Of a stretch of 15,649 bases of DNA, positions 525 through 15,327 are shown piece after piece. Location of the stretch: assembly GCA_019308705.1 (NCBI GenBank), contig JAFDHW010000040.1:1-15649 (forward strand), written 5' to 3'. The translations under genes and the position numbers were made by a program. A model generated the notes under the pieces. That model ran no database searches. It worked only from the letters and a program-made list of their open reading frames with translations, and had not been told where the DNA came from. Each line of letters starts with the position of its first letter. The stretch's first letter is position 1. This stretch comes from Deltaproteobacteria bacterium (GTDB lineage Bacteria; Desulfobacterota; Desulfobacteria; Desulfobacterales; Desulfatibacillaceae).

Positions 525-553
525 TTGACATGACCAACCCCAGGCCGTATTCA
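525..553 (+). promoter_or_regulatory. sigma70-type promoter of the aro-trp operon
   Basis: A consensus -35 TTGACA (525-530), an exact 17-base spacer and a -10 TATTCA (548-553, 5 of 6 matches to TATAAT if the fourth T is scored as a mismatch only once; TATTCA differs at positions 4 and 6 in strict scoring). The expected start is about 7 bases downstream of the -10, at or next to A561, which is the first base of the leader-peptide ATG. I see no TrpR-like palindrome overlapping the promoter, so control appears to be by attenuation alone. Confidence 0.78.
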
Positions 554-560
554 GGCATTC

Positions 561-644
561 ATGAGGTACGAACCGATTCATAACGCCTTTGGCGCGAACA
601 ACTGGTGGTGGTGGAACATGGTGCGGGTGCGCCCACGTTCCTAG
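561..644 (+). CDS. trpL: trp operon leader peptide with four tandem Trp codons
   Basis: A 27-codon reading frame, ATG at 561 and TAG at 642-644. The peptide begins MRYEPIHNAFGANN, then has four consecutive TGG codons (603-614, residues 15-18), then NMVRVRPRS. A run of regulatory codons in a short leader ahead of biosynthetic genes is the hallmark of ribosome-mediated attenuation. A ribosome stalled at 603-614 would occlude RNA strand 1 (604-626). A ribosome reaching the stop codon would sit on strand 2 (631-650). No upstream in-frame ATG exists before the TGA at 531. The only Shine-Dalgarno-like bases before the ATG are AGG at 553-555, which would not be transcribed if the start is at 561, so the mRNA may be leaderless. 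An alternative is a non-AUG start (ATT at 576) behind the GAGGT at 563-567; this would keep the Trp run. Confidence 0.9.
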   Translation: MRYEPIHNAFGANNWWWWNMVRVRPRS

Positions 645-650
645 TCCACC
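604..650 (+). promoter_or_regulatory. attenuator 1:2 (pause / anti-antiterminator) hairpin
   Basis: Bases 607-611 (GGTGG) pair with 646-650 (CCACC). Bases 613-617 (GGAAC) pair with 637-641 (GTTCC). Inside, 621-623 pair with 634-636 and 625-626 with 632-633. The 5' strand is the Trp-codon run itself. Forming this hairpin ties up strand 2 and leaves strand 3 free for the terminator. The pairing was worked out by eye; no folding energy was computed. Confidence 0.7.
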
Positions 651-675
651 GGGACAGACATAGGAAACCGCGGGC
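631..675 (+). promoter_or_regulatory. attenuator 2:3 antiterminator hairpin
   Basis: Bases 638-643 (TTCCTA) pair perfectly with 661-666 (TAGGAA). The helix continues outward, past a 2-base bulge (667-668), as 636-637 with 669-670 and, after one mismatch, 631-634 (GCCC) with 672-675 (GGGC). That gives about 12 base pairs. It consumes most of strand 3 (666-676), so it excludes the terminator. Its strand 2 overlaps the 3' side of the 1:2 hairpin, so it also excludes that one. Confidence 0.7.
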
Positions 676-698
676 CGCCCGGCCCGCGGTTCTTTTTT
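666..698 (+). terminator. trp attenuator (3:4 intrinsic terminator)
   Basis: A perfect 11-bp stem, AACCGCGGGCC (666-676) with GGCCCGCGGTT (681-691), with a 4-base loop (GCCC), followed by CTTTTTT (692-698). It starts 22 bases after the leader-peptide stop and ends about 95 bases before aroF. Together with the Trp-rich leader peptide and the competing 2:3 pairing it makes a complete attenuator. The terminated product would be an RNA of about 138 nt. Confidence 0.93.
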
Positions 699-700
699 GG

Positions 701-733
701 AGCCGCGGGGAATTTTCCCTGGCGGCTTTTTTT
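701..733 (+). terminator. second intrinsic-terminator-like hairpin in the leader
   Basis: AGCCGC (701-706) pairs with GCGGCT (722-727). The stem continues as 707-711 with 716-720 past a single bulged G721, closing on a 4-base loop. A run of seven T (727-733) overlaps and follows the stem, then G and TTTT. It begins 3 bases after the U-tract of the attenuator. A competing perfect 10-bp hairpin (717-726 with 740-749) would break it. Confidence 0.65.
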
Positions 734-792: not shown

Positions 793-1824
793 ATGCTGGT
801 GGTCATGGCAAAGAACGCGACAAACGAACAGATAGCCGGGGTTCAGGATGCCGTCCGCGCGGCGGGGTTCACGCCCCGGCCCATTCCCGGCGGGGAGCGG
901 GTGGCCATCGGCATCCTGCACAACCAGGGGCCCGTGGACCCATCGCTGTTCTCCTCCCTGCCCGGGGTTTCCCACACCATCCCGGTCACCAAGCCCTTCA
1001 AGCTGGTGAGCCGGGAGTTCAAGCACGAGGACACGGTGGTGGACGTTTCCGGCGTGCCCGTGGGAAACGGCCATTTCACCCTCATCGCCGGCCCCTGCGC
1101 CGTGGAGAGCGAAAAGCAGTGCCTGGCCATCGCCAGGGCGGTCAAGGCCGCGGGCGCGGGCATTTTCCGGGGCGGCGCGTTCAAGCCCCGCACCTCGCCG
1201 TACTCCTTCCAGGGCCTGGGCGAGGAAGGCCTGAAGATCCTGGCCAAGGTGCGCGGGGAAACCGGCATGCCCGTGGTCACCGAGGCCCTGGACACGGCGG
1301 TGTTCGACCTGGTGGAAGCCTACGCGGACATGGTGCAGATCGGCGCGCGCAACATGCAGAACTTTTCGCTTCTGCGCCGGGCCGGGCAGTCCAGGAAGCC
1401 CATTCTGCTCAAGCGCGGCATGTCCTCCACCATCGAGGAATGGCTCATGGCCGCGGAATACATCCTGGAGGGCGGAAACACCGCGGTGGTGCTCTGCGAG
1501 CGGGGCCTGCGCACCTTCGCCATGCACTCGCGCAACACCCTGGACCTCTCCGCCGTGCCCGTGGTGCAGAAGGAAAGCCACCTGCCCGTGATCGCGGACC
1601 CTTCCCACGCGGCCGGGGTGGCGGCCCAGGTGCCGCCCTTGGCCCGGGCCTCCGCGGCCATCGGCGTGCACGGGCTCATGATCGAGGTCCACGACCACCC
1701 GGAAAAGGCCCTTTCCGACGGCGGCCAGAGCCTTTTGCCCGGGCAGTTCGCGGCCCTGGCCAACCAGATGCGCGCCATCCACGAACTGTTGGACCGGCAG
1801 GGCGCGGAAACGGGGGCCCAATGA
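793..1824 (+). CDS. aroF: 3-deoxy-7-phosphoheptulonate (DAHP) synthase, Thermotoga/AroF-beta type
   Basis: A 343-residue cytoplasmic enzyme that condenses phosphoenolpyruvate and erythrose 4-phosphate to DAHP, the entry step of the shikimate pathway. Residues 1-75 form the small ferredoxin-like regulatory domain (MLVVMAKNAT...) of the type I-beta family. The barrel follows with LIAGPCAVES (97-106), FKPRTSPYSFQG (130-141), GARNMQN (184-190), KRGMSSTIEEW (207-217), CERGLRTF (235-242), IADPSHAAG (267-275) and GLMIEVH (294-300). The metal ligands C102, H272, E298 and D309 fall at the positions known for the Thermotoga maritima enzyme. ATG793 is chosen because GGGAGG lies 9 bases upstream and the N-terminus aligns with that family. 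Its stop overlaps the trpE start (ATGA, 1821-1824). It is the first gene after the attenuator, so its expression should follow Trp-tRNA supply. In this family the N-terminal domain usually mediates feedback by an aromatic amino acid; which one cannot be read here. Confidence 0.97.
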   Translation: MLVVMAKNATNEQIAGVQDAVRAAGFTPRPIPGGERVAIGILHNQGPVDPSLFSSLPGVSHTIPVTKPFKLVSREFKHEDTVVDVSGVPVGNGHFTLIAGPCAVESEKQCLAIARAVKAAGAGIFRGGAFKPRTSPYSFQGLGEEGLKILAKVRGETGMPVVTEALDTAVFDLVEAYADMVQIGARNMQNFSLLRRAGQSRKPILLKRGMSSTIEEWLMAAEYILEGGNTAVVLCERGLRTFAMHSRNTLDLSAVPVVQKESHLPVIADPSHAAGVAAQVPPLARASAAIGVHGLMIEVHDHPEKALSDGGQSLLPGQFAALANQMRAIHELLDRQGAETGAQ

Positions 1825-3308
1825 AACTTTCCGCTTTTCCGGACAAGGCCGAATTCCTGGACATGGCCGAAAAGGGCTCCGTGGTGCCCGTGTGCGTGGA
1901 GATCCTGGCGGACACGGAAACCCCGGTGTCGCTGCTCATGAAGCACCAGGACAGCAGCGGCCCGATGTTTCTCCTGGAGAGCGTGGAGGGCGGGGAGCGC
2001 TGGGGCCGGTACTCGTTTTTGGGTACCCGGGCAAAGTACGAGGTCAAGGTGTTTCCCGAAAGCGTTTCCATTTCCGGCACCAGGGGCGAAGAGAGGATCG
2101 AGCATGGCGGGAACCCCACCGCGGCCCTGCGGGACTTCATGGCCCGGTTCATCCCCGTGGCCCAGCCCCGGCTGCCAAGGTTCTGGGGCGGGCTGGTGGG
2201 GTATCTCTCCTACGAGGCGGTCTCGTTCTTCGAGCGCATCGAAAACCGGCTGCCAAGGGACGAACCCCTGGCCCACTTCCTGGTCACGGGCGACCTGTAC
2301 GTGTTCGACAACCTGCGCCACACCCTGACACTGGTTTCCCACGCGTTTCTGGATAACGGCGAGAACCCCGAGGCCCAGTACGACAAGGCCGTGGAGAGGC
2401 TTTGCGCCATGCGCGGGGCCCTGGACCGGCCCGTGCCCCGGCCGGACGCACCCCGGGCCGAACCCGGGCTTGTGCCAAGGGTGGACCCGGAGGACTTCAG
2501 ACAGCGGGTGAAGCGGGTCAAGGAGTATATCCGCGCGGGCGAGATCATCCAGGCGGTCATTTCCCAGTCCTTCGGCCTTTCCCCGGTCGTGGACCCCGTG
2601 GCCCTGTACCGCGCCCAGCGGTACGTGAACCCCAGCCCGTACATGTTCTTTCTGCGGACGGGGGATATGTCCCTGGTGGGGTCCTCGCCCGAGACCATGG
2701 TGCGCCTGGAGAGCGGCACGGCCACCTTGCGGCCCATCGCGGGCACCCGGCCCCGCGGCGCGGACCAGCAGGCGGACCGCGCCCTGGCGGACGAGCTGTT
2801 GGCGGACCCCAAGGAACGGGCCGAGCACCTGATGCTGGTGGACCTGGGCAGGAACGACCTTGGCCGGGTGGCGGCCACGGGCACCGTGCAGGTCACGGAC
2901 CTCATGGTGGTGGAACGCTACTCCCACGTCATGCACCTGGTTTCCAACATCAGCGCGGAGCTGGACGAGGGAAAAGACGGGTGGGACCTTTTGGCCGCCA
3001 CCTTTCCCGCCGGGACCCTTTCCGGCGCGCCCAAGGTGCGGGCCATGGAGATCATCACGGAAATGGAGGACGAGCCCAGGGGCCCCTACGGCGGCGCGGT
3101 GGGCTACGTGTCCTTCACCGGCAACATGGATCTGGCCATTACCATCCGCACGGCCGTGGCCAAAAACGGAAGCATCGTGGTCCGGGCCGGGGCGGGCATC
3201 GTGGCGGACTCGGACCCGGAGTCCGAGCGCGTGGAGTGCGTGAACAAGGCCAGGGCCATCGAGCGGGCCATGCGCCTGGTGTGCGGCGAGGGGAGGGAGA
3301 CGCCATGA
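1821..3308 (+). CDS. trpE: anthranilate synthase component I
   Basis: A 495-residue large subunit of anthranilate synthase. It converts chorismate plus ammonia (delivered from TrpG) to anthranilate and pyruvate, the first committed Trp step. The N-terminal domain carries LLES (51-54), the region where Trp binds in feedback-inhibited TrpE proteins. The C-terminal chorismate-binding domain shows GSSPETMVRLE (287-297), RPIAGTRPRG (304-313), HLMLVDLGRNDLGRVA (336-351), RYSHVMHLVSNI (366-377), FPAGTLSGAPKVRAMEII (395-412) and YGGAVGYVSFTGNMDLAI (423-440). TLSGAPKVRAMEII and the intact N-terminal domain favour TrpE over PabB, and the trp-operon setting supports this. The length is normal. The start overlaps the aroF stop by 4 bases and the stop overlaps the trpG start by 4, so translation is probably coupled on both sides, which suits a 1:1 complex with TrpG. 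Confidence 0.98.
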   Translation: MKLSAFPDKAEFLDMAEKGSVVPVCVEILADTETPVSLLMKHQDSSGPMFLLESVEGGERWGRYSFLGTRAKYEVKVFPESVSISGTRGEERIEHGGNPTAALRDFMARFIPVAQPRLPRFWGGLVGYLSYEAVSFFERIENRLPRDEPLAHFLVTGDLYVFDNLRHTLTLVSHAFLDNGENPEAQYDKAVERLCAMRGALDRPVPRPDAPRAEPGLVPRVDPEDFRQRVKRVKEYIRAGEIIQAVISQSFGLSPVVDPVALYRAQRYVNPSPYMFFLRTGDMSLVGSSPETMVRLESGTATLRPIAGTRPRGADQQADRALADELLADPKERAEHLMLVDLGRNDLGRVAATGTVQVTDLMVVERYSHVMHLVSNISAELDEGKDGWDLLAATFPAGTLSGAPKVRAMEIITEMEDEPRGPYGGAVGYVSFTGNMDLAITIRTAVAKNGSIVVRAGAGIVADSDPESERVECVNKARAIERAMRLVCGEGRETP

Positions 3309-3892
3309 TCCTGGTCATCGACAACTACGACTCCTTTACCTACAACCTGGTCCAGTACCTGCGCATGCTCGGCGAGGAGGTGCTGGTGAAGCGGAACGAC
3401 GAGATCTCCGCACAGGGCGCGATGAACACGGCGCCGGACCGCATCGTGATTTCCCCGGGCCCGGGCGGCCCGGAAAGCGCGGGCGTCACCCTCAAGCTCA
3501 TCGAAAAGGCCGCGGGCAACATCCCCATCCTGGGCGTGTGCCTGGGCCACCAGTGCATTGCCCACGCCTTTGGCGGAACCATCGTTTCCGCCAAATCCCT
3601 CATGCACGGCAAGACCTCCATGGTGGAAGCGGACGGCAAGGGGGTGTTTTCCGGCATCAAGTCCCCCTTCCAGGCCATGCGGTACCACTCCTTGGCCGTG
3701 GAGGAGGCCACCCTGCCGGACTGCCTGGAAATCTCCGCCCGGGCCGAGGACGGGGAGATCATGGGGCTGAGGCACCGGGAGTTTTGCGTGGAGGGAATCC
3801 AGTTTCACCCCGAGTCCATCATGACGCCCGCGGGAAAGCGGATGCTCAGGAACTTCTGCCGCATGGACGGTCATCAACCAAAGGAAGGATGA
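3305..3892 (+). CDS. trpG: anthranilate synthase component II (glutamine amidotransferase)
   Basis: A 195-residue class I glutamine amidotransferase that hydrolyses glutamine and channels ammonia to TrpE. It opens MILVIDNYDSFTYNLVQYL, typical of TrpG/PabA. The oxyanion-loop motif is PGPGGPESAG (51-60). The nucleophile is C79 in GVCLGHQ, and the triad is completed by H168 and E170 in GIQFHPES. It is free-standing, not fused to trpD or trpE. It overlaps trpE by ATGA (3305-3308), and trpD begins 4 bases after its stop. In many bacteria TrpG also serves PabB in folate synthesis; whether this one does cannot be told from the window. Confidence 0.98.
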   Translation: MILVIDNYDSFTYNLVQYLRMLGEEVLVKRNDEISAQGAMNTAPDRIVISPGPGGPESAGVTLKLIEKAAGNIPILGVCLGHQCIAHAFGGTIVSAKSLMHGKTSMVEADGKGVFSGIKSPFQAMRYHSLAVEEATLPDCLEISARAEDGEIMGLRHREFCVEGIQFHPESIMTPAGKRMLRNFCRMDGHQPKEG

Positions 3893-3896
3893 AACC

Positions 3897-4901
3897 ATGT
3901 TCACCGACACCCTGAAAAACCTGGTCGACCGCCGGGACCTGGACGAGGAGCAGGCCAATGCAGCCATGGACGCCATCATGTCCGGCAAGTGCACCGACGC
4001 CCAGATAGGCGCATTTCTGGCCGCCATGGCCGCCAAGGGCGAAACCTTTGCCGAACTGGCCGGCGCGGCCCGGGCCATGCGCAAAAAGGCGGCCCGGATC
4101 CAGGCCACCTCCGGCGTGGTGGTGGATACCTGCGGCACGGGCGGGGACGGGGCCCACACCTTCAACATCTCCACCACCGCGGCCTTCATCGTGGCCGGGT
4201 GCGGGGTCACGGTGGCCAAGCACGGCAACCGCAGCGTCAGTTCCAAGTGCGGCAGCGCGGACGTGCTGAAGGCGTTGGGCGTGCGCCTGGACGTGGCCCC
4301 GGAAGTGGTGGAAGAGGCGGTGAACGAAATCGGCATCGGTTTTTTGTTCGCCCCCACGTTCCACGGCGCCATGCGCCACGCGGCCGGTCCCAGGAAGGAG
4401 CTTGGCATCCGCAGCATCTTCAACATGCTGGGTCCCCTCACCAACCCGGCCGGGGCCAACTGCCAGGTCCTGGGCGTGTACGCGCCCCAGTTCGCCGAGG
4501 CCTTGCGGCTTCTGGGGGCCAAGCGGGCCTTCGTGGTGCACGGCCACGACGGGCTGGACGAAATCACCGTGTGCGGCAAGACCCGGGTATCGGAGCTTTC
4601 CGGCGGCATGATCAGGACCTACGACCTGGACCCGGAAACGCTGCTGGGCCGGACCTACGATTCCCCGGAACTTTCCGGCGGCGGGCCAGAGGAGAACGCG
4701 GGCATCACCCGGGAGGTGCTTTCCGGCAAACCCGGCGCGCGCGCCGACGTGTGCGTGATCAACGCCGCCGCCGCCTTGGTGGCTGCGGGAAAGGCGGAGG
4801 ACTTGGCCGATGGGGTAAAGCTCGCCCGGGAATCCATCGCCGGCGGCGCGGCCATGGACAAGCTGGAAAAGCTGGCTTCCTTCACGTGGGAGAATGCGTG
4901 A
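3897..4901 (+). CDS. trpD: anthranilate phosphoribosyltransferase
   Basis: A 334-residue enzyme that transfers phosphoribose from PRPP to anthranilate, giving N-(5'-phosphoribosyl)anthranilate. The helical N-terminal domain (about 1-70) is followed by the PRPP-binding glycine-rich loop DTCGTGGDGAHTFNIST (77-93) and KHGNRSVSSKCGSADVL (108-124), both diagnostic. Further on are GPRKELGIRSIFNMLGPLTNPA and VVHGHDGLDE. The start at 3897 follows the trpG stop by 4 bases and has AAGGAAGG (3881-3888) as Shine-Dalgarno. The stop TGA is at 4899-4901. The length matches the family. It is the last gene before the 258-base gap and so ends the first coupled block of the operon. Confidence 0.98.
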   Translation: MFTDTLKNLVDRRDLDEEQANAAMDAIMSGKCTDAQIGAFLAAMAAKGETFAELAGAARAMRKKAARIQATSGVVVDTCGTGGDGAHTFNISTTAAFIVAGCGVTVAKHGNRSVSSKCGSADVLKALGVRLDVAPEVVEEAVNEIGIGFLFAPTFHGAMRHAAGPRKELGIRSIFNMLGPLTNPAGANCQVLGVYAPQFAEALRLLGAKRAFVVHGHDGLDEITVCGKTRVSELSGGMIRTYDLDPETLLGRTYDSPELSGGGPEENAGITREVLSGKPGARADVCVINAAAALVAAGKAEDLADGVKLARESIAGGAAMDKLEKLASFTWENA

Positions 4902-5159: not shown

Positions 5160-5813
5160 ATGGGCGTGCAGGTCAAGATTTGCGGGATCACGACTCCGAA
5201 CCAGGCGATTGCCTGCGTGGAGGCCGGGGCGCATGCCCTGGGGGTGGTGTTTTATGCGGAAAGTCCACGCTGCGTGGGGCCGGAGGCGGCCCGTCAGATA
5301 TTGGAAGCCGCGGGGCGGTCCATCCGCCGGGTGGGCGTGTTCGTGGACGAGCCCGGGGACATGGTGTTGGAACGGGCAAAGGAGCTTGACCTGGATTTCG
5401 TCCAGTTGCACGGGTCCGAGCACCCCGAGGTGGTGGCGGCCCTGGAGAACGCCGGGGTGCGCGTGATCAAGGCGCTTTTCGCCAACAAAAGCCCGGAGTT
5501 CGCGGACGCGGACAAGTATGAGGCCACGGGATTCTTGCTGGAAAGCGCCGGGGGCGAGCTTCCCGGGGGCAACGCCATGGCATGGGACTGGTCCGCGGCC
5601 AGGGGAGCCGGCGCGGGCAGGCCCGTGGTGCTGGCCGGGGGATTGAACGCGGACAACCTGGCCGAGGCCGTGGCTGCGGCCGGGGTATCCGCGGTGGACG
5701 TGTCTTCGGGCGTGGAACGGGCTCCCGGAGAAAAGGACGTGGAAAAGATACGAGCCTTCCTGGCCGCGGCAAAAGTCTGCCCGGCCGGCAAGGGCGAGGG
5801 GATATTCAAATGA
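5160..5813 (+). CDS. trpF: phosphoribosylanthranilate isomerase, with a variant catalytic acid
   Basis: A 217-residue single-domain beta/alpha barrel that catalyses the Amadori rearrangement of phosphoribosylanthranilate to CdRP. The start [11 protein letters not shown] carries the catalytic cysteine (C8). VQLHG (81-85), [11 protein letters not shown] (156-166) and AVDVSSGVE (178-186) are the standard barrel and phosphate-binding motifs. AGGAGG (5150-5155) lies 4 bases before ATG5160, and no earlier start gives family-like sequence. One departure stands out. The motif usually read as LLD...GG(T/S)G..FDW here reads FLLES (125-129) and [10 protein letters not shown] (135-144), so the position of the general-acid aspartate is E128 and the TG of the loop is NA. 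It is free-standing, not fused to trpC. It opens the second coupled block: its stop overlaps the trpB start (ATGA, 5810-5813). Confidence 0.95.
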
Positions 5814-7018
5814 ACGTCGGCGATTTGTCCCGGATGCCGGACGCCCGCGGCCACTTTGGCCCCTACGGCGGCCGGTACGTGGCGGAAACCCTCATGCCCG
5901 CGCTCCTGGAGCTGGACGAGGCTTATGCAACGGTGCGGGAGGACGGGCAATTTCAACAAGCATTAAAGGACTTGTTTTCCTCGTACTCCGGGCGGCCCAC
6001 GCCGCTTTTTTTTGCCGGCCGGCTCACGGAGAAGGCGGGCGGGGCCAAGATTTATCTGAAGCGCGAGGACCTGGCCCACACGGGCGCGCACAAGATCAAC
6101 AACACCTTGGGCCAGGCGCTTTTGGCCCGGTGGATGGGCAAGAACAAGCTCATTGCGGAAACCGGCGCGGGCCAGCACGGGGTGGCCACGGCCACGGCCG
6201 CGGCCTTGTTCGGCATGGAGTGCAAAATCTTCATGGGCACCGAGGACGTGCGGCGCCAGGCGCCCAACGTCTCCCGCATGGAGCTTCTGGGGGCCCAGGT
6301 GGTGCCCGTGGACGCGGGGTCGTCCACCTTGAAGGACGCCATGAACGAGGCCATGCGCTACTGGGTGGGGGCGGTGGAGGACACCTACTACGTCATCGGG
6401 TCCGTGGCCGGGCCGCATCCCTATCCTCAGATGGTGCGGGACTTCCAGCGCGTCATCGGCGACGAGGCCAGGGAGCAGATTCTTGCCGCCGAAGGAAGGC
6501 TGCCGGACCTCTTGGTCGCCTGCGTGGGCGGCGGGTCCAACGCCATGGGGCTTTTCTACCCCTTTGTGAACGACGGCGTGGCCATGGTGGGGGTGGAGGC
6601 CGGCGGGATGGGCGTTTCCACGGGCAAGCACGCCGCCACCCTGGGCGCGGGGTCCGTTGGCGTGCTTCACGGGTCCAAGTCCTACGTGCTGCAGGACGAG
6701 CACGGCCAGATCAAGGAGGCCCACTCCATCTCCGCGGGCCTGGACTACCCGGGCGTGGGGCCGGAACACTCCCTGTTCAAGGACCTGGGCGTGGCCGCCT
6801 ACGTGTCCGTCACCGATGACGAGGCCCTGGACGCGTTCCACGCCCTGGCGCGGGCCGAGGGCATCCTTCCGGCCATGGAAAGTTCCCACGCCCTGGCCCA
6901 GGCCATGAAGGAGGCCGCGAACCGGCCAAAGGAGCAAGTCATCCTGGTGAACCTCTCCGGCAGGGGGGACAAGGACCTGTCCATTGTCATGGAAAACCGG
7001 AAAGGCATTGTGCCATGA
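5810..7018 (+). CDS. trpB: tryptophan synthase beta chain
   Basis: A 402-residue PLP enzyme that condenses indole with serine to form Trp, acting with TrpA in an alpha2beta2 complex with an indole tunnel. It is TrpB1-type, the partner of TrpA, with the start [19 protein letters not shown]. The PLP lysine is K95 in HTGAHKINN. The catalytic glutamate E117 lies in ETGAGQHG, and the PLP-phosphate loop GGGSNAMG is at 240-247. [17 protein letters not shown] and LSGRGDKD are further signatures. The length is that of the canonical form, and the long extension typical of TrpB2 is absent. The start overlaps the trpF stop and the stop overlaps the trpA start, both by ATGA. This coupling fits the obligate 1:1 subunit ratio. 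GAGGGG lies about 9 bases before the start, inside trpF. Confidence 0.98.
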
Positions 7019-7806
7019 GCCGCATATCCCATACCTTCGAGAAGCTTTCCGCGCGCGGGGAAAAGGCCCTGGTGGCGTTCCTTTCCGCGGGCGATCCGGA
7101 CCGGGAGCGCTCCATGGCCGCCATCCGGGCATTGGTGGAAGGCGGCGCGGACGTGCTGGAGCTGGGGGTGCCGTTTTCCGACCCCACGGCGGACGGCCCG
7201 GTGATCCAGCGGGCCAGCCAGCGGGCGCTTTCCGCGGGCATGACCCTTCCCGGCGTGCTTTCCATGGCCGGGGAGATCCGCGCCGAGTTCCCGGACCTGC
7301 CCGTGGTGATCTTTTCCTATTACAACCCCATCCTGTCCATGGACGGCCGGTTCCACGCCGAGGCTGTGGCCGCGGGCGCGGACGGGCTTCTGGTGGTGGA
7401 TTTGCCTGTCGAGGAGTCCGACGAGCTCACCGGCTCCTGGGACGAGGGCCTGGACTTCATCCGGCTGGTGGCCCCCACCACGCCCAAAGAGCGCATGAAA
7501 GCCATCTGCGAGAAGGCCTCGGGGTTCGTGTACCTGGTTTCCATGACCGGCGTCACGGGCTCGGAGGGGCTCAAGCAGGAGGTCGCGGCCACGTGCGCCC
7601 GGGCGGTGAAATCCGTGACCGGTCTTCCCCTGTGCGTGGGGTTCGGAGTGTCCACGCCGGAGCAGGCCGGGCTTCTTTCCCGCGCCGCGGACGGCGTGGT
7701 GGTGGGCAGCGCGTTCTGCAAGATGCTGGAGCAGGGCGCTGCCCCGGATGAACTGCGGGATTTTGCCGCGTCCTTGAAACAGGGCATGAAGGAATCCGGC
7801 AAATGA
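7015..7806 (+). CDS. trpA: tryptophan synthase alpha chain
   Basis: A 263-residue beta/alpha barrel that cleaves indole-3-glycerol phosphate to indole and glyceraldehyde 3-phosphate, feeding indole to TrpB. The catalytic pair E49 and D60 is intact in the block [19 protein letters not shown] (47-65) and carries the same numbering as in enteric Trp[25 protein letters not shown] and [10 protein letters not shown] are conserved substrate-loop and phosphate-binding motifs. The start overlaps the trpB stop (7015-7018) and the stop overlaps the trpC start (7803-7806). Neither the sequence nor the length is unusual. Confidence 0.98.
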
Positions 7807-8600
7807 GCGGGATTCTGGACATCATCCTGGATCACAAGAAGCAGGAGGTGGAAGCAGCCCGCATCCGCACGCCCCTGGCGGACCTGAAACAAAAGGCCCT
7901 GGACAGGGAACCGGGCAGGGGGTTCTCCCTGCGGCTGAAGGAGCCGGGCCGGTTCGGGGCCAACATCATCGCGGAGATCAAGCGGGCGTCGCCCTCGGCC
8001 GGGAGCATCCGGGCGGACCTGGACGCGGGGGCCCAGGCCGGGGCCTACGAGCGCGGCGGGGCCGAGGCCCTTTCCGTGCTCACGGACCAGCGGTTTTTCT
8101 CCGGCACGCCGGAAGACCTCCAGGCCGCCCGGGCCGCGTGCCTTTTGCCCGTACTGCGCAAGGATTTCATCGTGTCCGAGTACCAGGTGTGGGAATCCGC
8201 GGCCATGGGCGCGGACGCGGTGCTGCTCATCGTGCGCGCCCTGGACCCGGGGTTTTTGCGCCACGCGCTTTCCCTGTGCGCGGAGGTGGGCCTGGACGCC
8301 CTGGTGGAGGTGCACGGCGAGGAGGAACTTCAAACCGCGCTGGACGCGGGCGCGGCCCTTTTGGGGGTGAACAACCGGGACCTTTCCACCTTCACCACGG
8401 ACCTGGCCGTGACCGAGCGCATAGCCGCGCTGGTCCCGCCGGCCGTCGCCCTGGTGGCGGAAAGCGGGGTGAGCGAACGGGCGCACATCACCCGGCTGCT
8501 TTCCGCCGGGGTGCACAACTTCCTCATCGGCACCGCCCTGGCCGGCCACCCGGACCCGGCCGCCAAGCTGGCGGAGCTTCTGGGGAGAGCGGGGCAATGA
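7803..8600 (+). CDS. trpC: indole-3-glycerol phosphate synthase
   Basis: A 265-residue barrel enzyme that closes the indole ring, converting CdRP to indole-3-glycerol phosphate with loss of CO2 and water. The key residues are visible in order: E58 and K60 in IIAEIKRASPSAG, K120 in LRKDFI, E169 in LVEVHGE, N190 in GVNNRDL, and E220-S221 in VAESGVS. These correspond to the known catalytic and binding set of the family. It is a single-domain protein, not the TrpC-TrpF fusion of enteric bacteria. Its place after trpA, rather than next to trpD or trpF, is not the common order. It overlaps trpA upstream and aroB downstream, each by ATGA. Confidence 0.98.
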   Translation: MSGILDIILDHKKQEVEAARIRTPLADLKQKALDREPGRGFSLRLKEPGRFGANIIAEIKRASPSAGSIRADLDAGAQAGAYERGGAEALSVLTDQRFFSGTPEDLQAARAACLLPVLRKDFIVSEYQVWESAAMGADAVLLIVRALDPGFLRHALSLCAEVGLDALVEVHGEEELQTALDAGAALLGVNNRDLSTFTTDLAVTERIAALVPPAVALVAESGVSERAHITRLLSAGVHNFLIGTALAGHPDPAAKLAELLGRAGQ

Positions 8601-9625
8601 AGGAATACGTGGTCCGCGGCCTGTTGGGAGACTCCCGCGTCCTGGTGGGCGAATCCCTGGACAGCCTGGCCGCGCTTTTGCCCGAGCGGGGCGTGCTCCT
8701 GGTCACGGACGAGAACGTGGACCGGCTCTACGGGGACAGGCTGCCGGATTTTCCCAAGATGGTGCTCCCTCCCGGCGAAGCCGAAAAAACCCTGGACACG
8801 GCCCGGGAAGTGTACAGGCGGCTGGTTCGGCTGGAAGCCGGGCGCGACTGGTTCCTCTGCGGCGTGGGAGGCGGCGTGGTGTGCGACCTTGTGGGGTTTG
8901 TCGCCTCCACCTACGTGCGGGGCATGGGGTTCGGGTTCTGCGCCACCACGCTTTTGGCCCAGGTGGACGCCTCGGTGGGCGGCAAGAACGGGGTGAACTT
9001 CGAAGGCTACAAGAACCTGGTGGGCGCCTTCAACCAGCCCCGGTTCGTGGTGTGCGACCCGGCGGTGCTTGCAACCCTGCCGGAAGAGGAAGCGGCCTCG
9101 GGCCTGGCCGAGGTGGTCAAGCACGCGGCCATCGCGGACCCGGACCTGTTCACGTTTCTGGAGGAAAACGCCCGGGAGGCCAGGGGCCTTGCCCCCGAGG
9201 CCGTGTTGCGTATGGTGGGAGACTCCGTGCGCATCAAGAGCGCCGTGGTGAGCGAGGACGAGCGCGAGGCCGGCAGGCGGAAGGTCCTGAACTTCGGCCA
9301 CACCCTGGGCCATGCCCTGGAGAAGGCCGCCGGGGTGAGCCACGGGTACGGCGTGTCCGCGGGCATGGCCGCCGCGGCCCGGCTTTCCGTGGACATGGGC
9401 CTGCTGGCGGAAGAGGAGGCCCGGCGGCTGGAAAACCTGCTTTTGTCCCTGGGCCTGCCCCTGTCCCTTTCCGCGGACCGCCGGGCCGTGGCCGACGCCC
9501 TGTTGCGGGACAAGAAGCGCGCCGGGGATACCCTGGACTATGTGCTGCTCTCCGGCCTGGGTACCGCCGTGGCGCGTCCCGTGCCCGTGAAGAAGCTTCT
9601 CGCCCTTTTGGGGCTTGACAGTTGA
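8597..9625 (+). CDS. aroB: 3-dehydroquinate synthase
   Basis: A 342-residue NAD- and metal-dependent enzyme converting DAHP to 3-dehydroquinate, the second shikimate step. Visible motifs are the NAD-binding GVGGGVVCDLVGFVASTYVRG (split at about 89-109), TTLLAQVDASVGGK (117-130) with NGVNF, and NLVGAFNQP (140-148). The zinc ligands are E172 (GLAEVVKHA), H235 (LNFGHTLGHALE) and H249 (SHGYG). The usual VIGDLAGF is VVCDLVGF here, a mild change. The start overlaps the trpC stop (ATGA, 8597-8600), so it belongs to the operon. It closes the operon opened by aroF, the enzyme that makes its substrate. No clear intrinsic terminator follows; the next recognisable signal is the promoter at 9641. Confidence 0.97.
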   Translation: MKEYVVRGLLGDSRVLVGESLDSLAALLPERGVLLVTDENVDRLYGDRLPDFPKMVLPPGEAEKTLDTAREVYRRLVRLEAGRDWFLCGVGGGVVCDLVGFVASTYVRGMGFGFCATTLLAQVDASVGGKNGVNFEGYKNLVGAFNQPRFVVCDPAVLATLPEEEAASGLAEVVKHAAIADPDLFTFLEENAREARGLAPEAVLRMVGDSVRIKSAVVSEDEREAGRRKVLNFGHTLGHALEKAAGVSHGYGVSAGMAAAARLSVDMGLLAEEEARRLENLLLSLGLPLSLSADRRAVADALLRDKKRAGDTLDYVLLSGLGTAVARPVPVKKLLALLGLDS

Positions 9626-9778: not shown

Positions 9779-10786
9779 ATGCGATACGTCGCGCTTGCGC
9801 TGGCCGCCTTCCTGGCCTTTGCGGCAGGGGGCCGCGCCCAGGACCTCGTGGTCCGCGAGGCCTATCAGGACGCCACCCTGTCCGGCTACACCCGGGCGGA
9901 CACCACCATCACCCTGTCCGCCGAGGTCTCGGGCCGGGTGGTGGCCGCCAACTACGACATGGGCGACCGGGTGGGGGAGGGCCCGTTCTACGAGATCGAC
10001 GACACCTTCATCACCTTCCAGGTGCGCGCGGCCAAGGCGGCCCTGGAAGCAACGGAGGCGGCCTTAAACAGGGCCAAGTCCATGGAAGCCTACCTGCATA
10101 AGGAATACCTGCGCATCGAAAAGCTCCACGAGGGCGACCGGGCCAGCGAGGTGAAACGGGACGCCGCCAAGCAGGAGTGGGAGCAGGCCCGGCTGCAGAT
10201 CCAGGCGCTTTCCGCGGAAAAGAAGGCCCGGGAGGTGGACTTGGCGCGCCTTGTGGAGCAGCGTGCCCGGTACGACGTGTACGCGCCCATCGGCTACACG
10301 GTGGTGCACCGGCTGGTGGAGCCGGGCGAGGTGGTGAACCCCCAGGTGCCGCTGGCCCGGGTGGGGGATTTCAACACCCTGGTGGTTCCCATGTGCTTAA
10401 CCAGCCAGGAGCTTGCCGCGGTCAGGGCCCTGGGCGAAACCTTTGAGGCAAACCTGGAGGGCCAAACCGCCACGGTGTCCATCTACCGGGTGAACCCGGA
10501 GTTCAACGAGACCACCCGCAAGCGCTGCCTGGAGCTTCTGATCCAGGATTACCCCGGAGAACGCCTGGGAGGATTGAAGCTTTCCTTTGCCGTTTCCGTG
10601 AAGGCCGAGGGCGTGCTGGTGCCCAAGGCGGCCGTGCAAAGCCGCTATGAAAACCCCCGGGTGCAAACCGCGGACGGAAAGACCGTGAACCTTCTGGTGC
10701 TGGGCGAGTCCGGCGATTACCTGCTGGCCGCCGAGGACCCCCGCCTTCCCGTGGGCGCGAAACTTGCGCCGGCCGGCAACCCCTAG
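9779..10786 (+). CDS. RND efflux periplasmic adaptor (membrane fusion protein)
   Basis: A 335-residue HlyD/AcrA-type adaptor that links the RND pump to the outer-membrane channel across the periplasm. A Sec signal peptide is clear: MRYVALALAAFLAFAAGGRA, cleaved probably before QDL. There is no lipobox cysteine, so unlike AcrA it is probably not lipidated. The first lipoyl half is about residues 40-75 (TITLSAEVSGRVVAANYDMGDRV split over this stretch). A long charged helical hairpin follows (about 80-165). The second lipoyl half (YAPIGYTVVHRLVEPGEVV) comes at about 172-190, then beta-barrel and membrane-proximal segments. At 335 residues it is short for the family. ATG9779 is preferred over in-frame alternatives because of the GGAGGGGG 5 bases upstream and the signal peptide directly after it. 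The permease starts 12 bases after its stop. The substrate cannot be inferred. Confidence 0.93.
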   Translation: MRYVALALAAFLAFAAGGRAQDLVVREAYQDATLSGYTRADTTITLSAEVSGRVVAANYDMGDRVGEGPFYEIDDTFITFQVRAAKAALEATEAALNRAKSMEAYLHKEYLRIEKLHEGDRASEVKRDAAKQEWEQARLQIQALSAEKKAREVDLARLVEQRARYDVYAPIGYTVVHRLVEPGEVVNPQVPLARVGDFNTLVVPMCLTSQELAAVRALGETFEANLEGQTATVSIYRVNPEFNETTRKRCLELLIQDYPGERLGGLKLSFAVSVKAEGVLVPKAAVQSRYENPRVQTADGKTVNLLVLGESGDYLLAAEDPRLPVGAKLAPAGNP

Positions 10787-10798
10787 CAGGAAGCATCC

Positions 10799-13700
10799 AT
10801 GAAGCCCCTGGTCCGCTTCACCCTCGCCCAGACCGTGTTCATCAACGTGATCTTCGTGGTCCTGGTGGTGGCGGGCGTGTTCGCGCTTTTCTCCTCGCCC
10901 ATGGAGAACCTGCCCGAAGTGGACATGGGCGTGGTGTTCGTGCGCACCAACTATTACGGCGCATCCGCCGAAGACGTGGAAAAGCTGGTCACCTCCAAGA
11001 TCGAGGAGGCCCTGGAGGACATGGACTCGGTGGAGTACATCGAGTCGCACTCCTACCGCAACTACTCCTCCGTGAAGGTCAAGTTCCTGGACGACACGGA
11101 CTACCCGGACCTCTACGACGAGATTCGGTTCCGCATCCTTTCCGTGAAAAAGGAGCTCCCCCCCGGGGCCGAGGACCCCACCTTCCTGCACATCGACACC
11201 CACGAGTGGATGCCCGTGATCGTGGTCCACGTAGCGGGCGACGTGCCCCACACCACGCTGAGGCTTCTGGCCGAGGAGCTTAAAACCCGCATCCTGGCCG
11301 TGGAAGACGTGCGCTCCGCGGAGCTGAGAGGCAAGTTCGACCGGGAGTTCCACGTGTCCCTTTCCCCGGAGAAACTCCGCGCACACGGGGTCACCTTCGG
11401 CCAGGCGGCCCGGGCCATCGCCAGCGCCAACACCAAGATCCCCACCGGCCGGTTCGAGACCCAGGGCACGGAGTTCATGCTGGACGCGGGCAAGAAGCTC
11501 ACCAGCCAGTCCGAGGTGCTTTCCATCGTGGTGAAAAAGGACGGGGACGGGAACTTCGTGCGGGTGAAAGACCTGGTGACCTCGGCGCGGCTGTCCTACC
11601 GCGATCCGTTCACCATCTACTCGGTGAACGGCAAGGACGCGCTCCATTTGTGGGTGACCAAGGAGAAGTCCGGAAACGCCCTGGACATCTCCGAAAAGGT
11701 GAAGGCCGTGGGCGAGGCGTTCGGCCGCCAGCACGAAAAGGACGGCATCTCCGTGGTGTTTTCCAACGACTCCACCATCGAGATCTCCGATTCCCTGAAC
11801 ACCCTGGGCGGCAACCTCATCCTGGGCATGATCCTGGTCACCGCGGTGCTGTGGATGACGCTGGGCTTTAGAAACGCCATGTTGACGGCCATCGGCATCC
11901 CGTTCTCGTTTCTGTGCACCTTCCTGGTCATGCGGGCCACCGGGCTTTCCCTGAATACCATCACCCTGTTCTCCTTCGTGCTGGTCACGGGCATCATCGT
12001 GGACGACGCGGTGATTATCATGGAGAACTCGTTCCGGCACCGGCAGATGGGCAAGGGCCGGCGCCAGGCCGTGGTGGACGGCACCGCCGAGGTCATGATG
12101 CCCGTGGTGGCCTCGGCGCTCACCACCGTCGTGGCCTTTCTGCCCATGCTCATCATGACCGGGTACTTGGGCGACTTCTTCTCCTATGTGCCAAAGACCG
12201 TCACCTTCGCCCTGTTGGCCTCGCTTTTGGAGGCTTTGTTCATCCTGCCCGTGCACATCCTGGACTGGGGGCCCAAGAAGCTGCCCGAGGACGTGGTGAG
12301 TGACGAGGAAGACCCCTACCACCACCTGCGGACCGGCCCCTTTGCGCCCCTGTGGGTGGTGTACCGCCGGTTGGCGTCCTGGCTTCTGGACCACAAGGCC
12401 GTGGCCATGGCGCTTGCACTGGGGTTGTTTTTCGCCGCGGTGGTGCCCCTGGGCCTGTCGCTTTCCGGCAAGGTGCCCCTGATCCGGTCCCAGTTTTTCC
12501 CCTCCAACTACTTCCGCTACCACGTGACCCTGGACATGCCTCTCGGCACGTCGCTCACCGCCACGGACCAGGCGGTGCGCGCGATTTCGAAGTTCATCAT
12601 GGGCATGGGGCCGGGGCAGGCCCAGGCCGCGGTGGGCACCGCGGGCATGTACGAGCAGGAGGACTACCAGATCCGGTCCGGCGATTACTACGGCCAGGTC
12701 GTCGTGACGCTTCCCCATGAAGGGAAACGGGATTTCCCGGAGAACCCGAAAAACGACCCCATGGTCCACCTGGATTACGTGCGCAGGCAACTGGACGCCT
12801 TTGTGGCAAAGAACTGGCCCCAGGGCGGGAGGCCGGTGGTGCGGCTGTTCGAGGAGCAGGTGGGGCCGCCCTCGGGCAAGCCGGTGAACATCCGGGTCAC
12901 GGGAACCACCATGGAAAGCGCCCTTGCGGCCGCGGATTTTCTGGAGGCCTACATGCATTCGTCGCCCGAGCTTGCCGACGTGTTCGGGGTGGAGGACGAC
13001 CGGCCGGATTCCCAGAAGACGGTGGTCTACACCGTGGACCAGGACGCGGCCTACGAGTACGGCATCGACCCGTCCATGGTCACCTCGGTCCTTGCCGGAG
13101 CCCTGTCCGGCTACCCGGCGGGCATGTTTCGGGCCGTCGACGAGGAGGTGCCCCTCATGGTGCGCGTCGCCCGCACCAGGGACCCGGCCAACATGTCCCT
13201 GGCCGGTTTCTCCCTGCCCGCGGACGTGCTGAACCTCCCCGTGGTGGAGCACGCGGCCGCGCCGGTGTACGTGAAGGACCTGGTGAACATCCAGTACATC
13301 CCGGAGTCCACGGTGAAGAACCGCTACGAGGGCAAGCCCACGGTGACCATCACCGCGGACATCAAGGAAGGCTCGCACCTGTCCACGGCCCGGACCCAGC
13401 TTCTGTTGTCCAAGCACTTCGAGGCCAACCAGGAGAAGTTTCCCGGCGTGTCCCTGTCCTGGGCCGGGGAGTTCGAGGCCACCCAGAAGAGTTTCAATTC
13501 CCTGTATCTCGCCTTTGTCGTAGCGGTGCTGGCCATCTACATGATCCTGGCCTCCCAGTTCAACGACTATTTCCAGCCGGTGATCATCATCTCCGCGGTG
13601 CCCTTCGCCCTCACCGGCGTGGTGTTCGGGCTCATGCTCACCCGCACGGTGTTCACCGTGGGGTCCATGATGGCCATCGTGGGGCTTACCGGCGTGGCGG

Positions 13701-14032
13701 TGAACAACTCGCTGTTGCTCATCGATTTCATGAACAAGCGCTTAAAGACCGGCAAGAGCCTGCGGGACGCGGTCATGGAGTCCTGCGCGGCGCGGCTTAG
13801 GCCCGTGGTCATCACCACGGTGACCACGGCGCTGGGCCTGTTGCCCATGGCCATCGGCATCCCCTCCAAGAGCATCTCCTGGGCGCCCATGGCCGTGGCC
13901 TTCGTGTCGGGCCTGTTTTCCGCCACCCTGCTTTCCCTGCTCATGGTGCCGGTGCTCTACGAGATCCTGGAGGACCTGCGGGCGAAGCTGGGCTTGTCCA
14001 CCGTCCAGTCCGAAGGCGCAGGAGGGTTGTGA
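10799..14032 (+). CDS. RND-family efflux permease (AcrB/HAE-like)
   Basis: A 1077-residue inner-membrane pump, the energy-using part of a tripartite exporter. The topology is that of the family: TM1 at about 11-31, a large periplasmic loop, a TM2-6 bundle at about 335-487, TM7 at about 534-553, a second large loop, and TM8-12 at about 902-1055. The proton-relay pair D402-D403 is present in TM4 (GIIVDDAVIIMEN), showing a proton-driven transporter. In TM10 the lysine of AcrB (K940) is replaced: the segment reads GVAVNNSLLLIDF, with N969-N970 at that place. The TM8-9 signature MILASQFNDYFQPVIIISAVPFALTG (split) is typical of hydrophobe/amphiphile exporters and unlike metal pumps such as CusA. 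The start has CAGGAAG (10787-10793) upstream. Its TGA shares one base with the ATG of the outer-membrane gene. Substrate unknown: drugs, bile-like compounds, lipids or solvents are all possible. Confidence 0.95.
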   Translation: MKPLVRFTLAQTVFINVIFVVLVVAGVFALFSSPMENLPEVDMGVVFVRTNYYGASAEDVEKLVTSKIEEALEDMDSVEYIESHSYRNYSSVKVKFLDDTDYPDLYDEIRFRILSVKKELPPGAEDPTFLHIDTHEWMPVIVVHVAGDVPHTTLRLLAEELKTRILAVEDVRSAELRGKFDREFHVSLSPEKLRAHGVTFGQAARAIASANTKIPTGRFETQGTEFMLDAGKKLTSQSEVLSIVVKKDGDGNFVRVKDLVTSARLSYRDPFTIYSVNGKDALHLWVTKEKSGNALDISEKVKAVGEAFGRQHEKDGISVVFSNDSTIEISDSLNTLGGNLILGMILVTAVLWMTLGFRNAMLTAIGIPFSFLCTFLVMRATGLSLNTITLFSFVLVTGIIVDDAVIIMENSFRHRQMGKGRRQAVVDGTAEVMMPVVASALTTVVAFLPMLIMTGYLGDFFSYVPKTVTFALLASLLEALFILPVHILDWGPKKLPEDVVSDEEDPYHHLRTGPFAPLWVVYRRLASWLLDHKAVAMALALGLFFAAVVPLGLSLSGKVPLIRSQFFPSNYFRYHVTLDMPLGTSLTATDQAVRAISKFIMGMGPGQAQAAVGTAGMYEQEDYQIRSGDYYGQVVVTLPHEGKRDFPENPKNDPMVHLDYVRRQLDAFVAKNWPQGGRPVVRLFEEQVGPPSGKPVNIRVTGTTMESALAAADFLEAYMHSSPELADVFGVEDDRPDSQKTVVYTVDQDAAYEYGIDPSMVTSVLAGALSGYPAGMFRAVDEEVPLMVRVARTRDPANMSLAGFSLPADVLNLPVVEHAAAPVYVKDLVNIQYIPESTVKNRYEGKPTVTITADIKEGSHLSTARTQLLLSKHFEANQEKFPGVSLSWAGEFEATQKSFNSLYLAFVVAVLAIYMILASQFNDYFQPVIIISAVPFALTGVVFGLMLTRTVFTVGSMMAIVGLTGVAVNNSLLLIDFMNKRLKTGKSLRDAVMESCAARLRPVVITTVTTALGLLPMAIGIPSKSISWAPMAVAFVSGLFSATLLSLLMVPVLYEILEDLRAKLGLSTVQSEGAGGL

Positions 14033-15327
14033 TGAAGGCTGTGCATCTGCTGGTTTCGGCCCTGGCGGCCCTTCTGGCCCTGGCCCCGGCGGCTTGGGGC
14101 ATCACCAGGGACCAGGCCGTAAAATACGCCCTGGAACACTCCGACGAGCTGGCCGCCAGCCGTCACGAATCCGAGGCCCTGTCCGCCCAGGGCCGCCAGG
14201 CCGCGTCCATCGCCTGGCCCCACGTATCCACCCAGGCCGGATACAACGAGCTGGACACCAACGCCCCGGCGTTTCCCAACCCCCTGTTAAACCCGTGGTT
14301 CTTCCCGGAGCGGGACATCTCCGCCAAGGTGCAGGCCAGCCAGGTCCTGTTCGCCGGGTTCCGCGTGCTGAACAGCCTGAAGCTGAAAAGCTCCCTTTAC
14401 GAGCAGGCAACCCTTTCTTACGACGCCTCCCGCCGGGGGGTGGTCCGCAGGGTCAAGGACGCCTTCGACTCCGTGCTTCTGGCCCGCGCCTCCCTGGAGG
14501 TGCTCCGGGACCGCGCCGAGCAGGCGCAGGCGGAATTCCAGGACGCCAAGGACCTGTACGACGCCGGGATGGTGACTTCCCTGGACGTGCGCCAGGCCCG
14601 CCTGGCCTTGAACACCACGCAGATGGCCGTGCGGGAGGCCCAGGCCGCCCTTGACACCGCCATTACGGGCTTCAACCAGCTGATAGGCCGCCCGCCCGGG
14701 GAGGAGCCCCTGGTGCCCGAGGGTGACCTGTCCGAAACGCCCGAGGTCGAGTTGCTGGTGGACGCGTTGTTTTCCAGCCTCGAGTCTTGGAATTTCCCGG
14801 ACGTGGACCTTGCCCGCACCAGGGAGAAAAGCGCCCTTTACCAGAAAAAGGTCGCGGGGGGCAGGCTCTTCCCGGAGGTGGCAGCCGTGGGAACGGCGGA
14901 AACCTCGGGCCAGGAGTTCGACGAGATGTACGAGTCCTGGACCGCGGGGATAAACCTCAAGTGGGATATTTTCGACGGAGGCCTGATCTGGGCGCAAAGG
15001 GCCGAGGCCGCCGCCCGGCACAAGAGGGCGAGCGCCGGGGTATCGGCCGCCAAAAAGGAGATCGTCGCGGCCGTGCGAAGGATCCGCGCAAACCTTGACG
15101 GGGTGAACGCACGCATCGGCTTGGCCGAGGAGACGGTGAAGCTTTCGGAGCAGAACTACCAGGACGCCCGTGGCCATTACCGCGCGGGCACCATCACCAT
15201 CACACGGCTGGGCGAATTTTCCGTGGCCTGGGCCCAGGCCCGGTTTTCCCTGCTCTCCCTGTACCGGGAAAAGCGCGCCCTGGCCGCGGAGGCCGCCTAC
15301 CTGCTGGGCAGCGCCCGATCCCTTTGA
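14032..15327 (+). CDS. TolC-family outer-membrane efflux channel
   Basis: A 431-residue outer-membrane factor that provides the exit duct of the tripartite pump. A Sec signal peptide (MKAVHLLVSALAALLALAPAAWG) is followed by ITRDQAVKYALEHSDELAASR, the usual start of the mature OEP fold. Two OEP repeats are visible. The first has helices at about 115-215 with DLYDAGMVTSLDVRQARLAL. The second has helices at about 315-425 with NYQDARGHYRAGTITITRLGE. The pairing of A-G-x-x-T-x-x-x-(V/L) motifs is characteristic. No lipobox cysteine is present, so it resembles TolC rather than the lipidated OprM/NodT type. ATG14032 is chosen because GGAGGG (14021-14026) lies 5 bases upstream; a GTG sits one codon earlier. 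It overlaps the permease stop by one base (TGATG). Confidence 0.94.
   Translation: MKAVHLLVSALAALLALAPAAWGITRDQAVKYALEHSDELAASRHESEALSAQGRQAASIAWPHVSTQAGYNELDTNAPAFPNPLLNPWFFPERDISAKVQASQVLFAGFRVLNSLKLKSSLYEQATLSYDASRRGVVRRVKDAFDSVLLARASLEVLRDRAEQAQAEFQDAKDLYDAGMVTSLDVRQARLALNTTQMAVREAQAALDTAITGFNQLIGRPPGEEPLVPEGDLSETPEVELLVDALFSSLESWNFPDVDLARTREKSALYQKKVAGGRLFPEVAAVGTAETSGQEFDEMYESWTAGINLKWDIFDGGLIWAQRAEAAARHKRASAGVSAAKKEIVAAVRRIRANLDGVNARIGLAEETVKLSEQNYQDARGHYRAGTITITRLGEFSVAWAQARFSLLSLYREKRALAAEAAYLLGSARSL

Follow-up and report, generated by a model that had tools for sequence, protein, structure and literature searches.

A putative six-strand tryptophan attenuator with two terminators ahead of an aroF-led trp operon

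The leader preceding the aroF-trpEGDFBAC-aroB operon in the window (the whole 15,649-nt stretch of DNA analysed) is quite probably a ribosome-mediated Trp attenuator in which a single leader peptide would govern two intrinsic terminators, T1 and T2, through a cascade of six pairing strands. The sequence parts are present and recur in relatives, and the pairings 3:4, 5:6 and 4:5 covary. From these parts we infer a promoter, leader translation, ribosome stalling, termination at both T1 and T2, and an order of folding. With Trp-tRNA plentiful, the ribosome would reach the stop codon and cover strand 2, and 3:4 (T1) would form; consumption of strand 4 in T1 would leave strand 5 free for 5:6 (T2), and the polymerase would face two stop signals. 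With Trp-tRNA scarce, the ribosome would stall on the Trp codons at 603–614, 2:3 would form and T1 would fail; the freed strand 4 would then capture the emerging strand 5 before strand 6 exists, T2 would fail in turn and the operon would be transcribed. Such a cascade rests on the order of synthesis, because equilibrium folds return to T1 plus T2 and favour 4:5 in the unstarved state as well.

Profile search of the window placed one run of genes behind the leader, all on the forward strand: aroF (793–1824, DAHP synthase type I-beta, above the cut-offs of NF006421 and TIGR01361), trpE (1824–3308, top matches to TrpE models, with TIGR00564 at 504.6 bits, just under its cut-off of 517.7), trpG (3305–3892, TIGR00566, start taken from the match), trpD (3897–4901, TIGR01245), trpF (5166–5813, NF002298 at 195.1 bits, just under the cut-off of 215), trpB (5813–7018, approximate start, TIGR00263), trpA (7015–7806, TIGR00262), trpC (7803–8600, NF001377) and aroB (8591–9625, 3-dehydroquinate synthase, putative start, TIGR01357). 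Among titled records, AroF comes closest to those of a Proteobacteria bacterium MAG (82%) and Desulfatibacillum (71 and 69%). On the same strand 3' of aroB, at 9782–15327, lie RND efflux adaptor-, permease- and TolC-like genes, all under model cut-offs.

Read directly from the forward strand, TTGACA at 525–530 is the likely −35 hexamer of the leader promoter, with a candidate −10 hexamer, TATTCA, 17 nt past it at 548–553; a consensus promoter scan reported neither of the two. Of the 88 aroF leaders described below, 78 have an exact TTGACA 25–190 nt 5' of the first Trp codon, whereas the adjoining upstream stretch contains one in 4 of the 88. The leader peptide ORF claimed at 561–644 in the earlier note was confirmed by reading the frame: MRYEPIHNAFGANNWWWWNMVRVRPRS, 27 codons from the ATG at 561 followed by the stop codon TAG (642–644), with the presumed sensor, four consecutive TGG codons, at 603–614. 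This run is the single match in the window and was present in 1 of 200 shuffles; hence it is improbable by chance. The ATG has no Shine-Dalgarno sequence. If TATTCA is the −10 element, the ATG would lie at, or 1–2 bases from, the transcription start, and a leaderless RNA may be the template for the peptide.

Control by a T-box, by TRAP or by a repressor, with the Trp run arising by chance, is extremely improbable. No supporting point was found for it, and Rfam release 15 gave zero matches over the leader (525–735) at E≤1. In 12 related loci no family exceeded its gathering score, and the three unrelated matches in or near the leader stretch (rli61, ar35 and GlmZ_SraJ) were weak, below gathering score and taken as chance. 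Against such control also stands the recurrence of the Trp codons and of the 2:3/3:4 pairing across 29 families. The lone Rfam match in the whole window at E≤1, at 4083–4130, is weak and unrelated.

The region 525–740 folds at −93.2 kcal/mol, compared with −75.8 ± 4.7 kcal/mol in 200 shuffles (z −3.7). Helix coordinates, all on the forward strand, were taken from constrained folding. Hairpin 1:2 (602–652) pairs 602–608 with 646–652 and 613–617 with 637–641. The antiterminator 2:3 (624–681), for which complementarity was also found in relatives, has a core of 638–643/661–666 and extensions 624–629/676–681, 631–634/672–675 and 636–637/669–670. T1 (3:4, 666–698), identified by folding, terminator calling and covariation, pairs 666–676 with 681–691 and is followed by the U-tract CUUUUUU at 692–698. 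The hairpins proposed earlier at 607–650, 631–675 and 666–691, together with a U-tract, were thus essentially right, 2:3 being longer than had been described, and the stop codon does lie in strand 2 as claimed. In predicted folds, the RNA without a ribosome adopts 1:2, a ribosome at the stop codon gives T1 plus T2, and masking of the Trp codons gives 2:3. At the T1 decision point with the ribosome stalled, 3:4 (−40.1) is predicted to be better than 2:3 (−36.3); since 3:4 is the more stable there, 2:3 has to win by forming earlier. With a stalled ribosome and RNA to 712–716, 2:3 (with 4:5) reaches −54.8 versus −44.4 for 3:4, and with RNA exposed to 727 the minimum fold is again T1 plus T2.

A second terminator, T2 (5:6, 700–733, forward strand), was identified by folding, terminator calling and covariation, with stems 700–706/722–728 and 707–711/716–720 and a U-tract at 727–733. 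The 3' arm of T1 is complementary to the 5' arm of T2 over 10–11 bp, G-U included, giving a second antiterminator 4:5 (683–709, forward strand) of 683–693 with 699–709, supported by folding and covariation. Its predicted strength is −18.4 kcal/mol versus −10.4 kcal/mol for the control pairing 3:6, and the window element thereby has the two features that we propose to define the class, namely two terminators and a 4:5 stronger than 3:6. The attenuator had been called complete in the earlier note; its listed parts are present, but T2 and 4:5 had been overlooked and there are two terminators, not one. Two separate sensors, as in a tandem riboswitch or tandem attenuator, were not found in the window leader, and there is no room for a second one because T2 begins 8 nt past the T1 stem.

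When the ribosome sits at the stop codon and the RNA ends at 712–718, equilibrium pairing prefers 4:5 over T1 (0.60 and 0.82), T1 regaining the lead at 726 and beyond. At equilibrium 4:5 alone is therefore not starvation-specific, since it is favoured with the ribosome at the stop codon too. It can have no effect on T1, because strand 5 is synthesized after the U-tract of T1; its evident use is against T2. Within 721–745 of the window, GGCGGC of strand 6 is also able to pair with 740–745, and this helix is present in the stalled-ribosome fold; it could form only once T2 had been passed.

In relatives, an aroF search at E≤1e-120 found 133 places in 132 of 291 genomes of the order, of which 4 with under 250 nt upstream were left out and 129 kept. 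Of these 129 upstream regions, 88, spread over 29 of 35 families, contain a Trp-rich short ORF with an intrinsic terminator behind it, and the other 41 do not. Trp-rich was set by rule (WW, or two W within four residues) rather than by a computed chance rate. The 2:3 duplex beats the shuffle mean in 77/88 leaders and in 27/29 family means, and reaches p≤0.05 singly in 40/88; in an alignment, both sides have changed at 9 of the 11 pairs of 3:4. The comparison of homologous leaders thus favours the proposal that an aroF-led trp operon is preceded by a ribosome-mediated Trp attenuator, as the Trp run, 2:3 and 3:4 all recur.

In at least 32 of the 88 leaders, from 16 families, another terminator was called no further than 150 nt from the first Trp codon; the remaining 56 gave one terminator only. 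The 32 tandem leaders are a lower bound, since a second hairpin was missed in L096 by the U-tract rule (it is seen by eye) and in L123 because of the 150-nt limit. Outside the order, in the same phylum, 12 of 42 aroF upstream regions contain two terminators, and 4:5 beats 3:6 in 9 of these 12 tandem pairs; in L250, L256 and L269, all from one family, 3:6 is slightly stronger than 4:5.

Whether T2 belongs to the regulated device bears on a further explanation, namely that T1 alone is regulated and T2 is an independent fail-safe or a duplicated copy, with 4:5 a by-product of shared terminator sequence. We consider this unlikely. A constitutive T2 placed 3' of T1 would shut the operon during starvation, which argues against a fail-safe. 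As to a copy, T1 and T2 are indeed alike, and 3:6 is the stronger pairing in L250, L256, L269, in L121 and L191 from within the order, and in L325, a locus found by the covariance model described below. Nevertheless, 4:5 is the stronger of the two in 30 of the 32 tandem aroF leaders, in 16/16 family means and in 20/20 tandem leaders of ADTH synthase (see below); T2 is therefore not simply a copy of T1. A 4:5 duplex is predicted in all 32 tandem leaders (−9.4 to −22.0 kcal/mol, interrupted in some by a mismatch or bulge), and T2 detection made no use of 4:5. Its mean is −15.8 kcal/mol for matched strands, −12.7 for strands across families and −8.1 for shuffled strand 5, and when each family was represented by a single leader, 0.04% of 5000 permutations matched the real pairing.

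We aligned 28 sequences (alignment A1), comprising 27 of the 32 tandem aroF elements and the element of the ADTH synthase locus of the same genome. In this alignment 90.3% of the cells of 5:6 and 90.6% of those of 4:5 are paired, 8 of 12 pairs of 4:5 have changes on both sides, and the 4:5 covariation score was equalled by 0 of 500 shuffles, as against 63 of 500 for the control 3:6, these fractions not being probabilities where sequences are related. The control is 71.7% paired, a value equalled by 23 of 500 shuffles and above that of slid versions (at most 50.2%), as expected given that some likeness of T1 and T2 predicts it. A copy would also fit poorly with the pairs at columns 33/70 and 35/68, where 4:5 is kept by G-U and 10 and 23 of the 28 sequences leave the corresponding 3:6 positions unpaired. 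Among 301 other terminators in control stretches around 21 of the 32 tandem leaders, 8 had 5' arms pairing equally strongly with strand 4 and 8 had 3' arms pairing equally strongly with strand 5, the threshold being −10 kcal/mol for these terminators and −8 kcal/mol for T1 and T2. Besides the aroF leaders, the control stretches held four tandem pairs within 40 nt, one of which is the 1:2 hairpin with T1 and another of which (L224) precedes a second aroF-like gene. At this locus (L224:1050–1475) the gene is 56% identical and is preceded by two terminators and, by eye, the leader HFYYGRFF.

The earlier note further held that Trp-tRNA charging would gate the whole shikimate pathway. A classical single-terminator trp attenuator exerting such control through aroF has the following in its favour: AroF heads the operon, aroB stands at its end, and AroF is the sole DAHP synthase found in its own genome (assembly of 2.84 Mb in 500 contigs, 95.7% complete), in which PF00793 matched AroF and one more protein, a KDO8P synthase, and PF01474 gave no match. 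It is nonetheless very unlikely, given T2 and 4:5 and a second possible route to dehydroquinate in the same genome. PF01959 identified one dehydroquinate synthase II, whose gene is flanked by that of an ADTH synthase (TIGR01949) and that of a prephenate dehydratase, the latter also matching chorismate mutase more weakly; judged by homology, ADTH synthase and dehydroquinate synthase II may together form that route. Upstream of the ADTH synthase gene in this cluster (L217/L282, contig C63) are a Phe/Tyr-rich leader, MHRVFAGGFYFGGYYFYATGLPAGARCG, and two terminators, with 4:5 at −16.7 and 3:6 at −15.7. Gating of the whole pathway by Trp thus lacks support, failing on anatomy because the second entry sits behind a Phe/Tyr-rich leader.

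ADTH synthase was found in 150 of the 291 genomes of the order, and leaders were examined at the best 30 loci. An aromatic-rich short ORF precedes a terminator in 26 of these (L300 being doubtful), and two terminators lie within 30 nt in the 20 whose 4:5 was compared with 3:6 above. As far as gene and leader content can tell, this suggests Trp control on one entry to the pathway and Phe/Tyr control on the other.

The residues before the Trp run may vary with operon content. Over the 88 aroF leaders, the two positions before the run are enriched 4.9-fold for Phe and 8.8-fold for Tyr relative to the rest of the leaders; Asn is enriched 2.2-fold, and the values for Leu, Ile and Val (1.0-, 0.5- and 0.9-fold) show no enrichment. 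The Phe/Tyr excess could result from a constraint for U-rich RNA and not from sensing, though the values for Leu, Ile and Val speak against this. Phe or Tyr precedes the Trp run in none of the 8 leaders of the window's family (two have Phe one residue further up) and in 51 of 80 leaders of other families (Fisher p 0.0006, uncorrected for relatedness). The gene behind aroF is trpE in 6/6 stretches of the window's family (L218–L223); no trpE was detected in the 14 stretches from other families, though some of these break off shortly past aroF. These data fit Trp sensing by leaders of aroF-headed trp operons and mixed aromatic sensing in the other cases, a contrast that comes from one clade.

A covariance model of T1 plus T2, trained on a set to which the window element and the ADTH element of the same genome belonged, ranked these two first in that genome. 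The third and fourth matches (C293 and C262) lack an aromatic leader and resemble ordinary terminators at gene ends, and the sixth (C315) also has no aromatic leader. The fifth (L316, C169:10261–10332, E 0.02) consists of a leader, MVGAYYFGFRYFGYFRFRKSARGGA, containing YYFGFRYFGYFRF, and two terminators before a paaK-like gene (TIGR02155, 641.2 bits, cut-off 646.3). We examined 17 loci from model matches, 4 from the same genome and 13, hand-picked away from aroF, from 20 relatives. Behind the relatives' matches are: 1) a trpE-like gene in L325, L330, L342, L344, L350 and L351, of which L344 alone is above the TIGR00564 cut-off and some are cut by the locus end; 2) trpC in L331; 3) a class I-alpha DAHP synthase gene in L343 and L345; 4) a paaK-like gene in L352; and 5) by sequence, an ADTH synthase gene in L334 and L349; L347 carries no gene assignment. 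An aromatic-rich leader is present at 12 of the 13, L325 lying too close to the contig end to judge. When 12 model matches were re-measured, 10 had two callable terminators and 4:5 exceeded 3:6 in 9 of these, L316 included; 3:6 was favoured in L325. The model is silent on his, leu and ilv leaders because it was trained on aromatic leaders.

On balance we lean towards the view that double-terminator attenuators form a widespread family that wires the aromatic amino acid metabolism of this phylum, with a single stalled ribosome opening both terminators through 2:3 followed by 4:5. Fitted with codons for Trp, for Phe/Tyr or for a Phe/Tyr/Trp mixture, the device would tie the non-homologous DAHP synthase/AroB and ADTH synthase/dehydroquinate synthase II routes to different aminoacyl-tRNAs, the leader codons following operon content: in aroF-headed trp operons the Trp run would stand without neighbouring Phe/Tyr, whereas other leaders would often be mixed. 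It suggests that bacteria with two unrelated shikimate entries could split control by amino acid.

Known trpL attenuators follow the strand scheme 1:2/2:3/3:4 with one terminator, and textbook trp attenuation has a single final terminator; in the enterobacterial his leader, strands A–F alternate and the last hairpin alone is a terminator. The his leader, for which two alternative structures are described, resembles the present one in having alternate pairings over more than four strands, but here both 3:4 and 5:6 are terminators. In the passage on trpL of E. coli and C. glutamicum, a leader ORF with Trp codons and termination controlled by Trp-tRNA are described, as proposed here (PMC11802643). 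The first structural gene behind trpL is trpE instead of aroF, and a 4:5 pairing onto a second terminator is not known there. The C. glutamicum aroR-aroF leader likewise places a leader-peptide attenuator ahead of a DAHP synthase gene, but with a Phe-Tyr-Phe leader, and the passage makes no mention of a second terminator or of trp genes following aroF (Neshat 2014, as reviewed in PMC11802643).

Two terminators or attenuation steps in one leader have precedents. According to the passages concerned, the rimP-leader has a second terminator in tandem, but the extra one lies upstream with its own potential antiterminator, and no leader peptide is mentioned (PMC2965389). The mgtCBR leader holds tandem attenuators, that is, more than one attenuation step, but with two leader ORFs, two independent signals and stem-loops unlike intrinsic terminators (PMC3641672). 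Tandem THI elements of Desulfovibrio, as excerpted, put two terminators in series, one for each of two sensors (PMC545781), whereas here one sensor would serve both. For the D. vulgaris cluster aroA'-aroB'-pheA-aroF-tyrA-trp, a predicted upstream attenuator was listed in 2005, also ahead of ADTH-route genes, with neither a leader peptide nor a second terminator given in the passage (PMC1173090). Coupling of two terminators by 4:5 is not described in the passages on rimP, mgtCBR, Desulfovibrio THI, C. glutamicum aroR or D. vulgaris, and no double-terminator amino acid attenuator was seen among titles and abstract openings of the open-access literature. Judged by these passages, we rate the 4:5-coupled double terminator as new within ribosome-mediated attenuation. 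One sensor driving two terminators could lower the off state yet leave the on state open, and the cascade would show an RNA switch passing its decision downstream.
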